From a virus, in the IMG/VR virus record IMGVR_UViG_3300048930_000011, positions 1 to 29,385 of that record: a stretch of 29,385 nt of DNA; one strand, 5' to 3'. Below the pieces are notes generated by a model, which saw only the letters and a program-made list of their open reading frames with translations, did no database searches and had not been told where the DNA came from. The position numbers and the translations under genes were made by a program. Shown one piece after another: positions 14,332-25,686 of the stretch; the first letter of the stretch is position 1, and every line of letters starts with the position of its first letter.

Positions 14332-14828
14332 CGCCTGAGCCCCGGAAAGTCGCTGTAGCGGTAGAAGGTAAAGGGGAAAGCCCTGTTCAGCACGTCCGTG
14401 CGCGTCGCCGTGGCCGATACCGCCTCGCGCGTCACCTGGACGCCCGTGATGATGAGGGATAGCGGCGGGTCGTTCTGAGGGACCGTCGCCGCGGTGTCGA
14501 GGTAGACCCGATATGTGCAGCGGATCGGCTCTTCCGGGAGCGCGATGGCGGCTTCCAGCGGGTCCACCAGGTCGCGTCCGATGTTGGCGATGGTCAGTCC
14601 CATGTCCTGTTGCCCCTGCCCGTCCAGCGACGGCAGGACGATGCGGAACGGCATCGCCACAAAGGTGACCATCTGGCCGGTTTCAAGCAGGAACTGCCAC
14701 GGCTGGTTATCGGAGGTAACGTAGTAGGTCTGCGGGAAGAGGGAGTGCGAGAACGCCAGCGTCTCGATGAACCGCTGCGTCGTCGGCGCGCTCGCGTAAA
14801 TCTCTTTGAGAGCGGCGGAAATGGTCAT
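14328..14828 (-). CDS. DUF1833-type tail protein (166 aa)
   Basis: Begins MTISAALKEIYASAPTT and includes AMPFRIVLPSLDGQGQQDMG and GLTIANIGRDLVDPLEAAI, with a later LIITGVQVTREAV block; this is the pattern I associate with phage proteins annotated DUF1833. They lie between the tape measure and NlpC/P60 genes and are probably part of the distal tail or baseplate hub, in the place taken by gp12/gp13 in gene transfer agents. The start overlaps the tape measure stop (TGATG), and its end overlaps the peptidase start by four bases. Most of the fold is beta. The precise role is not established. Confidence 0.75.
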   Translation of the reverse strand: MTISAALKEIYASAPTTQRFIETLAFSHSLFPQTYYVTSDNQPWQFLLETGQMVTFVAMPFRIVLPSLDGQGQQDMGLTIANIGRDLVDPLEAAIALPEEPIRCTYRVYLDTAATVPQNDPPLSLIITGVQVTREAVSATATRTDVLNRAFPFTFYRYSDFPGLRR

Positions 14829-16396
14829 CAGCGCCCGGCCCTCCGCAGCCCATAGCCGCGCTCCACCGCCTGCGCGATGGGGTTGCCGCCGCGCGCCAGA
14901 TCCTTCGCGATCTCCGCCTTGACGATATCAATCTCAAGGCCGCCGTTCATGCCGCGCCTGGTCGAAACCTGAGCCCCGGCGTAATTGTTCACCGTCACAG
15001 CCATCTCGCCGCCGCCCATGCGGTCCATCGGCGTGATCCGGGCCGGGCCGTGGATGATCTCCGGGCCGGCCTCGCCAGCGATACCCCACTTGCCGGAGCC
15101 CAGATAGCCGCCATTGGCGAACAGGCCGCCGAAGACCATTCCACCGATGTTGATCCCCGCGCCGCCTCCGCCGGTCAGCCCGCCCAGAAACATCCTGATC
15201 AGGCTATTGGCCGCCATCTCGGCAGCGATGTCGGCAAGGCTCTGGATGATGCTCTGAGCCATCTGCGCAAACGCCTCTTTCGCGCTCATGGTGCCGGTGA
15301 TCAGGCCGGAGATGGCATCGCTCAGACCGTACTGGATGGTATCGCCAATGCGCAGCAGGCTGTCCGAGAACAGGCTGGCCTCGGGAGTCGCGCTCTTCAG
15401 GTGCTCCTCCAGCGCGGAAACGGCCTTGCCCGCGCCGTAGATGTCCTCGATTGTCGATTGCCGTTCCTTCTTGCCCTTCTCAGGCTTCAGCACCGGCACA
15501 TTGGCGAAGGGGTTGGTGGTCGGTTTCAGGGACGGGAAGGCGAATTGCCCGGCGCCGCCCATCGGCCCCATGTTCACCACTGGCTTGCCGCGATACTGAT
15601 CTCCGTTCAGCATCGCCCAGAGTTCCTGAATGGCCGACGGCTTGTCGGAACTCAGGTTGGCGAACATCTCCTGAATGCCCTGCACATGCAGCGAGGCGGC
15701 CTCCACCATGCCTACGACCATGCGCTGCCACATGGTCGCGATGTTCGCGGTGGTGCGGTTGTAGGCTTCCTCGATCTCCTGAAGCCGGGCAACCTCTTCG
15801 TTGCTGTGGTAGACGCCGCTCGCGACCATTTCCTGCGTGGCGGTATCGACGCCCTCCGCGCCGGTGCGGAACGCCTCCACCAGCTCACGGCCCACGCGGG
15901 TGCCGAGAACGCCGGTGGCCATCGCCAGCTGATCGGCTGGCGTCTTCGCGTTGCGCAGCAGATCCATGAAGTCGCGGATCACCGCGTTGGTATCTCGGCC
16001 TTGCGCCGTGAGCCCGTTCGCGGCGAAGAGCTTGCTCAGCTTGGAATTGACGTCGGTTGACTGCTCCGCGATCTCCTGCAGGCCCTTGGCCATTACCTCG
16101 GCTGACGTGCCGGACGCCAGCGCCATGCGGTTGAACACCTGCACCTGTTCGGCGGTGATCCCTATCGTCTCCGCGAGATCGCCAATCTGGGCGATCTGCT
16201 TGATGGCATCAGTAACAGCTGCTCCAAGCGCGCCGATACCAAGGCCGCCCAGCATGCCAGCGAAGGCGGCGCCGAGGGTCGAGAATGATTTCTGCAGCCC
16301 CGCGAGGGATGACTGAGCCTGCTTCAGCCCATTGGCGAATGCCGCCGTGTCGATCCCCAGCCGGACCATGAGATTGCCGATTTCTGCCTGGCTCAT
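14828..16396 (-). CDS. Tail tape measure protein (522 aa)
   Basis: Sets tail length and is thought to be ejected ahead of the DNA. The start MSQAEIGNLMVRLGIDTAAF continues into a helix-rich region with KSFSTLGAAFAGM and a Gly/Ala-rich segment (LGGLGIGALGAAV, residues about 49-61), then long helices. The later part has LITGTMSAKEAFAQMAQSI (a lambda-type tape measure signature near residue 365) and ends with ANGGYLGSGKWGIAGEAGPE and GGGEMAVTVNNYAG. At 522 residues it is short for the family; using about 0.15 nm per residue the tail would be near 78 nm. ATG 16396 overlaps the chaperone frameshift product stop (ATGA). Confidence 0.9.
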   Translation of the reverse strand: MSQAEIGNLMVRLGIDTAAFANGLKQAQSSLAGLQKSFSTLGAAFAGMLGGLGIGALGAAVTDAIKQIAQIGDLAETIGITAEQVQVFNRMALASGTSAEVMAKGLQEIAEQSTDVNSKLSKLFAANGLTAQGRDTNAVIRDFMDLLRNAKTPADQLAMATGVLGTRVGRELVEAFRTGAEGVDTATQEMVASGVYHSNEEVARLQEIEEAYNRTTANIATMWQRMVVGMVEAASLHVQGIQEMFANLSSDKPSAIQELWAMLNGDQYRGKPVVNMGPMGGAGQFAFPSLKPTTNPFANVPVLKPEKGKKERQSTIEDIYGAGKAVSALEEHLKSATPEASLFSDSLLRIGDTIQYGLSDAISGLITGTMSAKEAFAQMAQSIIQSLADIAAEMAANSLIRMFLGGLTGGGGAGINIGGMVFGGLFANGGYLGSGKWGIAGEAGPEIIHGPARITPMDRMGGGEMAVTVNNYAGAQVSTRRGMNGGLEIDIVKAEIAKDLARGGNPIAQAVERGYGLRRAGR

Positions 16397-16737
16397 TGCA
16401 GTGTCTTCAGCTCCTCGGGATCGCCGCCAAAGGCGAGGAATATGGATTTCAGCGCAATCAGGTGTTCTTCAGGCGTCTGCCGCCTGCCGTTGCCGGGCCG
16501 GTTGCCGATCAGCAGGCTTTCCAGCTTCGGCAGCTTCCTCGTCCGGTCCAGAGCCACGATGTGCCAGGCCAGAGACATGCGTTCATCCGCTTCCCGCTCA
16601 AGACGGCGCATCGCGCCCTTCATCTCGCGGTCCGCTTCCATCGGTGTGATCTGCCAGAAGCGCCCCGGGTCGAACCCCGCCGCCACCCAGTTCAGGTGGG
16701 CTCCGGCCCAGTCCGTCCGCGCTTCCGGCCTTACCGG
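16393..16737 (-). CDS. Frameshift extension of the tail assembly chaperone (rcc01693-type domain)
   Basis: An open frame of 114 codons in the -1 frame relative to the preceding gene, with no ATG, GTG or TTG before its conserved part. Its start coincides with the slippery heptamer at 16737-16743, and reading after a -1 slip gives PVRPEARTDWAGAHLNWVAA, then GFDPGRFWQITPMEADREMK. The 'W...G..P..FW.ITP.E' pattern matches phage tail assembly chaperones of the rcc01693 type (PF09550). With the upstream frame it would give a fusion of about 218 residues, analogous to lambda gpG-T, which binds the tape measure during tail assembly. Its stop overlaps the tape measure start. Confidence 0.75.
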   Translation of the reverse strand, partial: PVRPEARTDWAGAHLNWVAAGFDPGRFWQITPMEADREMKGAMRRLEREADERMSLAWHIVALDRTRKLPKLESLLIGNRPGNGRRQTPEEHLIALKSIFLAFGGDPEELKTLQ

Positions 16738-17048
16738 TTTTTTCCGGCGGCCCCCGCGGGCTGTGGGAATGCCAGCATCATCGCCTTGTTGATAGCCTCG
16801 GACGTCGCCGCGGCCCCGGCCTCGTGCATGATGTCGCCGGCTTCCTCGATGCTGACGCCGTGATGGTGGCGGAGCCCAGCCCACAGCACGGCCCGCACCA
16901 CCGACACCCGGCCCATGCCCGCCACGATGTCGCTCAGGCTCTTGTCGAGATGGTTCTCCAGCTCGCAGACGGAATTGATCGTGAAGGCCAGCGTGTAGGT
17001 TTTCTCGCCAGCCTTCAGGCTGACTTCGCCACGGTGCGGGTTAGGCAT
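16731..17048 (-). CDS. Tail assembly chaperone, GTA gp10-like (105 aa)
   Basis: Starts MPNPHRGEVSLKAGEKTYTL and continues with INSVCELENHLDKSLSDIV, then VRAVLWAGLRHHHGVSIEEAGD; this resembles the gene-transfer-agent gp10 family (PF11836). The place between the tail tube and the tape measure is that of lambda gpG. Its last codons GGA AAA AAC CGG TAA hold a -1 slippery heptamer, so two products are expected: the 105-residue short form and a longer fusion with the next frame. ATG 17048 overlaps the tail tube stop (TGATG). The fold is mostly helical. The family and role are well supported by context. Confidence 0.82.
   Translation of the reverse strand: MPNPHRGEVSLKAGEKTYTLAFTINSVCELENHLDKSLSDIVAGMGRVSVVRAVLWAGLRHHHGVSIEEAGDIMHEAGAAATSEAINKAMMLAFPQPAGAAGKNR
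16737..16743 (-). promoter_or_regulatory. Programmed -1 ribosomal frameshift site (A AAA AAC)
   Basis: On the minus strand the bases 16743 to 16737 read AAAAAAC, phased as A AAA AAC in the upstream chaperone frame, a canonical X XXY YYZ heptamer. The zero-frame stop follows two codons later (CGG TAA at 16731-16736). Slipping back by one enters the rcc01693-type frame directly. A G-rich stretch lies roughly 10 bases upstream, which could act as an internal Shine-Dalgarno stimulator. No downstream structure was worked out. Confidence 0.8.
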
Positions 17049-17461
17049 CAGGCCGCCGCCCAGGTCGGCTTGCCGGTGATCTTGAACGTAGCCGAGGCGG
17101 TCATCTTGTCATCGACCGGCGCCTGCGGCTGATAGGCGGTCACGATGGCGGTGAACACCACGTTCGCGCCGTTGGCGGCAGTGATCTTGAACTGCCCTGC
17201 GGTGGCCGCCGTCAGCGCCGCGATGATCACGTCCGCGTGATTGGGGACGTAATTCATCTCGATGGTGACCTCGCCCGCGTCCATCAGGCCGGGGATGTAT
17301 TCGCGGAACTGGTCTGGCGATGCCATGTTCGTGGCGTCGATGGCGTCGCGGCTGTAGCCCGGCCAGGTGATCGAGGTGACTTCCGCCACGTCCACATAGC
17401 TAGAACCGTTATAGATTGCGAAATCGGTGTTGTAACCGATGACTGCCGTGGTGGCGGGCAT
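17048..17461 (-). CDS. Major tail tube protein (137 aa)
   Basis: Expected to polymerise into the hexameric tube of the siphophage tail. The sequence has the tail-tube plan: an N-terminal strand (TAVIGYNTDFAIYNGSSYV) and an EVTSITWPGYSRDAIDATNM loop, followed by REYIPGLMDAGEVTIEMNYV and a C-terminal block with VVFTAIVTAYQPQAPVDDKM and TASATFKITGKPTW. The 'DATNM(A/S)S.D.FREYIPGL.DAGE' block is a standard signature of lambda-V or TP901-1-type tube proteins. Gene order fits exactly: tail terminator before, chaperones after. ATG 17461 is two bases past the stop of the upstream gene. Confidence 0.92.
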   Translation of the reverse strand: MPATTAVIGYNTDFAIYNGSSYVDVAEVTSITWPGYSRDAIDATNMASPDQFREYIPGLMDAGEVTIEMNYVPNHADVIIAALTAATAGQFKITAANGANVVFTAIVTAYQPQAPVDDKMTASATFKITGKPTWAAA

Positions 17462-25559: not shown

Positions 25560-25686
25560 TTCACGGCCTCCTCAGCCAGTTTCAGATTTTCAACAAACAC
25601 ACCCAAAACGCGAAAATTACGGTTTATGGGTTTTTTTGAGGCCCCACCGGTCTGGAAAACAAATCACCCTAAAGATTTACCCCCCC
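25560..25686 (-). other. Intergenic gap upstream of the terminase; possible cos region
   Basis: A 127-base gap, noticeably more AT-rich than its surroundings. It has an imperfect inverted repeat (acccaaaac at 25601-25609 and gtttatgggt at 25622-25631), a T7 tract (25631-25637), and a run of eight C (25680-25687) that reaches into the HNH stop. In cos phages with an HNH gene, the cohesive-end site often lies near this spot. I see no sequence that proves a cos site. Confidence 0.3.

Follow-up and report, generated by a model that had tools for sequence, protein, structure and literature searches.

The tail assembly locus of this virus raises the question as to whether its two overlapping chaperone frames are translated as separate proteins or are joined by programmed ribosomal frameshifting. 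The window analysed here, the whole 29,385 nucleotide stretch of IMG/VR record IMGVR_UViG_3300048930_000011, carries a minus-strand siphophage structural operon (terminase, portal, protease, capsid, head-tail proteins, tail tube, chaperones, tape measure and tail tip) with the gene order tail tube - TAC1 - TAC2 - tape measure, so that the chaperone pair is directly flanked on both sides by the genes it would be expected to accompany in a lambda-type system (Table 1). In the chaperone region neither a promoter nor a terminator was found.

Table 1 Features of the tail chaperone locus, in positions of the window
Feature	Position	Strand	Basis
ORF1, tail assembly chaperone 1, 105 aa, gpG-like / RcGTA g10-like	16731..17048	minus	PF11836, phrog_2115, AlphaFold model
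Slippery heptamer A_AAA_AAC, in phase with ORF1 and one codon short of its stop	16737..16743	minus	sequence
ORF1 stop codon TAA	16731..16733	minus	sequence
ORF2, -1 frame extension, tail chaperone 2 domain (gpT / RcGTA g10.5-like)	16393..16737	minus	phrog_19318, relatives' PF09550/PF06223, dN/dS
Candidate stimulator: Shine-Dalgarno-like GGGGG, 7 nt upstream of heptamer	16751..16755	minus	anti-SD duplex energy
Candidate stimulator: downstream stem-loop	16653..16729	minus	fold energy, pairing in relatives
Major tail tube protein gene, before the chaperone pair	17048..17461	minus	PF16461 E=9.5e-19
Tape measure protein gene, after the chaperone pair	14828..16396	minus	phrog_1538 E=4e-20

The 3' end of ORF1 reads GCC GCC GGA AAA AAC CGG TAA, and the heptamer A AAA AAC has both the sequence and the exact -1 phase that the sequence-only reading had given it. 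Past the heptamer the -1 frame reads P V R P E A R T D W A G A H L N W ... F W Q I T P and runs for 114 codons after the slip to a TGA at 16395-16393; the predicted fusion, put earlier at about 218 residues, was recomputed as 104 + 114 = 218. The tape measure gene begins with an ATG at 16396 that overlaps the ORF2 stop as ATGA, and translation of the tape measure, if coupled to this -1-frame stop (16393-16396), would depend on frameshifted ribosomes.

ORF1 matches PF11836 (Phage_TAC_11 / GTA-gp10) with E=4.6e-6 at 27.1 bits, just below the cut-off of 27.8, and phrog_2115 ('tail protein') with E=1e-19. Its AlphaFold model has a pLDDT of 89; the best VIA-align match among solved structures is the HK97 tail assembly chaperone 2OB9, and matches among the BFVD viral models include several tail assembly chaperones and N15 GT. 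ORF2 matches phrog_19318 (E=1e-20), a family without a named function that links 16 of the 17 aligned ORF2 relatives. Ten of these 17 match PF09550 Phage_TAC_6 (best 8.8e-20) and one, L032, matches both PF09550 and PF06223 Minor tail protein T, the lambda gpT family (1.5e-7). By these profile matches the ORF2 family bridges GTA chaperone 2 and lambda gpT, while the window's own copy matches neither profile (PF09550, no match at E<=1; PF06223, no match). The ORF2 model is of moderate quality (pLDDT 75, pTM 0.43) and with it VIA-align returned unrelated helical proteins only; for both chaperone domains Foldseek against the PDB gave nothing significant and a sequence search of PDB chains gave no matches.

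Were ORF2 translated separately, it would have to rely on reinitiation at or near the ORF1 stop, on a GTG at 16884 or on an internal GTG or ATG. The codon spanning the ORF1 stop is a non-standard GTA in the window and ATA in others, neither of which is a start. The GTG at 16884, although in frame, is the single ATG, GTG or TTG that precedes the DW block in the -1 frame, lies deep in the ORF1 overlap and was rejected as a start since it is not conserved, being absent from the close relatives L003, L004, L006 and L007. The next start codons of the -1 frame fall within the conserved DW...FW block, which internal initiation would cut off. The claim that no ATG, GTG or TTG precedes the DWAGAHLNW block in the downstream part of this frame was thereby borne out, and the close relatives too are without a start upstream of the block. 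Rhodobacteraceae relatives of gene transfer agent (GTA) type do practise separate translation of the second gene, by way of ATGA overlaps; however separate translation would also leave the conserved in-phase heptamers described below unexplained, and we consider it very unlikely for this virus. As in lambda G/GT, the second frame is open, lies at -1 and has no start of its own.

Relatives were drawn from viral contigs, phage records and bacterial genomes, with ORF1 found by profile and all junctions scored by one script, giving 95 loci (one record per near-identical group, ORF1 E<=1e-3). No start codon was present within 60 nt of the second-frame domain in 41 of the 95, termed start-less, and in all 41 the second frame lies at -1. 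Of the 41 start-less loci, 34 have a strict X_XXY_YYZ heptamer in phase, the counts for the other two phases being 3 and 1; of the 54 loci that do have a start codon, 8 have one in phase (Fisher p=1.6e-11, a value that is indicative only because the loci are related). When start-less loci were grouped into independent clusters below 50% identity, 23 of 29 had a heptamer at the junction, and the pattern is therefore not confined to one clade. Among close relatives the identical position holds A_AAA_AAC in the window and in L003-L005 and C_CCA_AAC in L006-L009; elsewhere in the family the variants C_CCC_CCG, G_GGA_AAG (in Paracoccus relatives; also the heptamer of lambda), G_GGA_AAC and A_AAA_AAG occur. 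In close relatives as elsewhere the pattern is kept and the letters change, which argues against conservation for amino acids alone. Homologues lacking a slippery site had been named as grounds for abandoning the frameshift; the majority of the start-less loci carry one, an outcome that favours the frameshift.

Seven start-less -1 loci are without a strict heptamer (L011, L030, L051, L097, L107, L118 and L123) and may use other slip motifs; Agrobacterium phage Rivra, for example, has C_CCC_AAG, a candidate for P-site slipping. A further locus (L018:994-1389) has A_AAA_AAA near the end of ORF1, with ORF2 in the +1 (or -2) frame and a GTG close by. Scans of genome contigs gave six Paracoccus loci for A3 and no close relatives for A2, and a PHROG search of 385 alphaproteobacterial genomes gave matches in two.

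Comparison of ORF2 in the -1 frame with L003-L006 gave dN/dS values of 0.13-0.29, indicating purifying selection and therefore that the -1 frame is translated and useful. This bears directly on whether the frame break could be a decayed gene or a sequencing error. No support for that reading was found; the only near-identical record, L002, agrees with the window over 4 kb but may be the same virus. Both frames are under purifying selection and dozens of independent loci share the break. Decay was rejected on these grounds, being in practice refuted by the relatives, and we regard decay or error as having a next to negligible probability. The comparative evidence (heptamers in 34/41 start-less loci, a -1 frame in 41/41 and purifying selection) strongly supports the earlier proposal of a programmed -1 frameshift as in lambda, and from it we conclude that the site is very probably functional and joins the two tail chaperone domains.

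The string itself is not rare, since AAAAAAC was found twice on the two strands of the window with 1.2 expected. The other copy lies at 25630-25636 on the minus strand, upstream of the terminase gene. Strict in-phase heptamers number 6 in the 24 likely coding sequences of the window (7249 codons), the chaperone site being the only one with six A, and in the ORF1 bodies of relatives they occur at 0.26% of codons, corresponding to 0.06 expected per 25 codons, or about 0.06 per locus. What goes beyond chance is the heptamer's phase, place and conservation.

The run of six A also permits an explanation in which the fusion arises by transcriptional slippage, with ribosomes not involved. RNA polymerase slippage usually needs runs longer than A6, and it is disfavoured here because most heptamer variants of the family have no long run, with relatives carrying C_CCA_AAC, G_GGA_AAG or C_CCT_TTC in its place; the phase and the spacing of the stem also suit ribosomes. 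Transcriptional slippage therefore appears extremely improbable. Counting against the ribosomal frameshift is that, in E. coli, A_AAA_AAC is generally regarded as less slippery than A_AAA_AAG.

Candidate stimulators flank the heptamer on both sides. The upstream GGGGG gives an anti-SD duplex energy of -8.6, the strongest among ORF1 windows, and a Shine-Dalgarno-like site upstream ranks at 0.05 or better (the top 5% of its own ORF1) in 12 of the 34 heptamer loci. Downstream, a 104-nt fold reaches -50.1 kcal/mol (z -3.06), while shorter folds (62 and 77 nt) are unexceptional with z about 0. Its outer stem of 11 bp (16729-16719 / 16663-16653), separated from the heptamer by a spacer of 7 nt, was independently proposed by RNAalifold, and 92% of its cells are paired over six distinct sequences compared with 32-47% when it is slid. 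Two pairs are changed on both sides, and shuffles gave 13/500 to 77/500, only a moderate excess, so that covariation offers the predicted stem moderate support. Taken over all family members, the stretch of 75 nt that follows the heptamer folds more strongly than four control positions, with a mean z of -1.39 against -0.12 to -0.59 (p=8e-4).

In the mechanism that we propose, most ribosomes would read ORF1 through to its TAA and produce the 105-residue chaperone, and a minority, holding tRNA-Lys at AAA and tRNA-Asn at AAC, would move back by one base at A_AAA_AAC and continue in the -1 frame to give the predicted 218-residue fusion of both chaperone domains. The Shine-Dalgarno-like G run and the stem-loop probably assist the slip. 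If the products act as gpG and gpGT do in lambda, the short form would coat the tape measure protein, and the T-like domain of the fusion would recruit the tail tube protein; the slip, how often it occurs and what its products do are all inferred here from lambda (PMC5009743).

The sequence-only reading had also held that GTAs encode the two domains as separate genes, and that this phage, in contrast, seems to link them by recoding. The first part stands for Rhodobacteraceae: in all 36 GTA-type loci of this family that were examined (L055-L060 and L066-L095, called by a strong PF09550 match plus a g10-like ORF1 and not in every case by a complete cluster) an ATG or GTG lies up to 42 nt before the second domain, in most of them overlapping the stop of g10 as ATGA, and an in-phase junction heptamer occurs in just one (L079). 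It does not stand for three loci of other alphaproteobacterial genomes (L136, L137 and L138), in which C_CCT_TTC lies in phase and the conserved FPW is not preceded by a start. All three are genuine GTA clusters (GTA_TIM PF13547, E<1e-148), and L136 also has terminase, protease, capsid and TAC_11. In most loci of this type the ORF1 stop does coincide with an ATG or TTG, but a start there would lose the FPW. Since these loci are start-less and carry the heptamer, recoding does not in general separate phage from GTAs, and the sequences suggest that frameshifting may operate in GTAs outside Rhodobacteraceae.

More GTA-type pairs of this sort were seen in L098, L099, L101, L102, L109, L112 and L119 and in the IMG/VR contigs L020-L022, L025, L026 and L028; they carry C_CCT_TTC or C_CCT_TTT in phase, and their FPW-type block has no start ahead of it. 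The C_CCT sites of GTA-type pairs often extend to C_CCT_TTC_CCT. Six IMG/VR contigs of GTA type use TTT for the Phe of FPW though TTT makes up 0-14% of their Phe codons; in L136-L138 the choice of TTT is no evidence, because it accounts for about half of Phe codons there. A search of an open-access library gave no earlier paper describing frameshifting in GTA tail chaperones; the +1 frameshift of PMC10299305 concerns a hydrolase.

On balance we lean slightly towards an evolutionary reading in which -1 frameshifting would be the older expression mode of the PF11836/PF09550 pair, still used by RcGTA-like agents outside Rhodobacteraceae (at C_CCT_TTC_CCT), and in which Rhodobacteraceae would have replaced it with a stop/start overlap, giving up the obligate fusion. 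The comparison also turns the contrast with GTAs into a question of evolution that can be tested, namely which of them still produce a fused chaperone and what Rhodobacteraceae agents lost or gained by the separation.

The frameshift also bears on published phage annotations. In PG1, Rivra, Psul1, Pben1, a Syntrophomonadaceae phage and the Caulobacter W2/Kronos group, the start given for the second ORF lies within the matched domain or at its edge, and these annotations probably hide unannotated frameshifts. The internal starts truncate a conserved domain (as in Paenibacillus phage PG1, Agrobacterium phage Rivra and Paracoccus phages Psul1 and Pben1), and a frameshift in those phages would restore the whole second-chaperone domain. 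The published records affected in our set are L029 (PG1), L030 (Rivra), L034 (Psul1), L036 (Pben1), L032 and L033 (W2).

Among known systems, the HK97 chaperone 2OB9 aligns with the ORF1 model at Z 4.5 over 84 residues (rmsd 4.5, identity 8%), which points weakly to a resemblance of fold, the low Z not being proof of common descent; members of an HK97-like TAC cluster frameshift at 6-7% (PMC3711429). With RcGTA g10/g10.5 (PMC11409702) the phage shares the families PF11836 and PF09550, the gene order and an ORF2 that is usually at -1 there too, whereas the second gene of Rhodobacteraceae has its own ATG or GTG, usually overlapping the stop as ATGA. The lambda gpG/gpGT frameshift (Levin 1993; Xu, Hendrix and Duda 2004, 2013, 2014, the 2004 work as described in PMC5009743 and PMC3711429; reviewed in PMC5009743) has a shared layout, with two chaperone frames between the tail tube and tape measure genes, a start-less ORF2 at -1, a strict heptamer near the ORF1 stop and, in L032, an ORF2 domain that matches lambda gpT. 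The phage differs from lambda in its heptamer, A_AAA_AAC, in chaperones of the PF11836/PF09550 branch that have little sequence in common with lambda's, and in having a Shine-Dalgarno-like G run and a stem 7 nt downstream as predicted stimulators. The mechanism is a known one, that of lambda G/GT, of which this locus is a well-supported further instance in this chaperone branch; what had not been expected is that gene transfer agents are divided in this respect.
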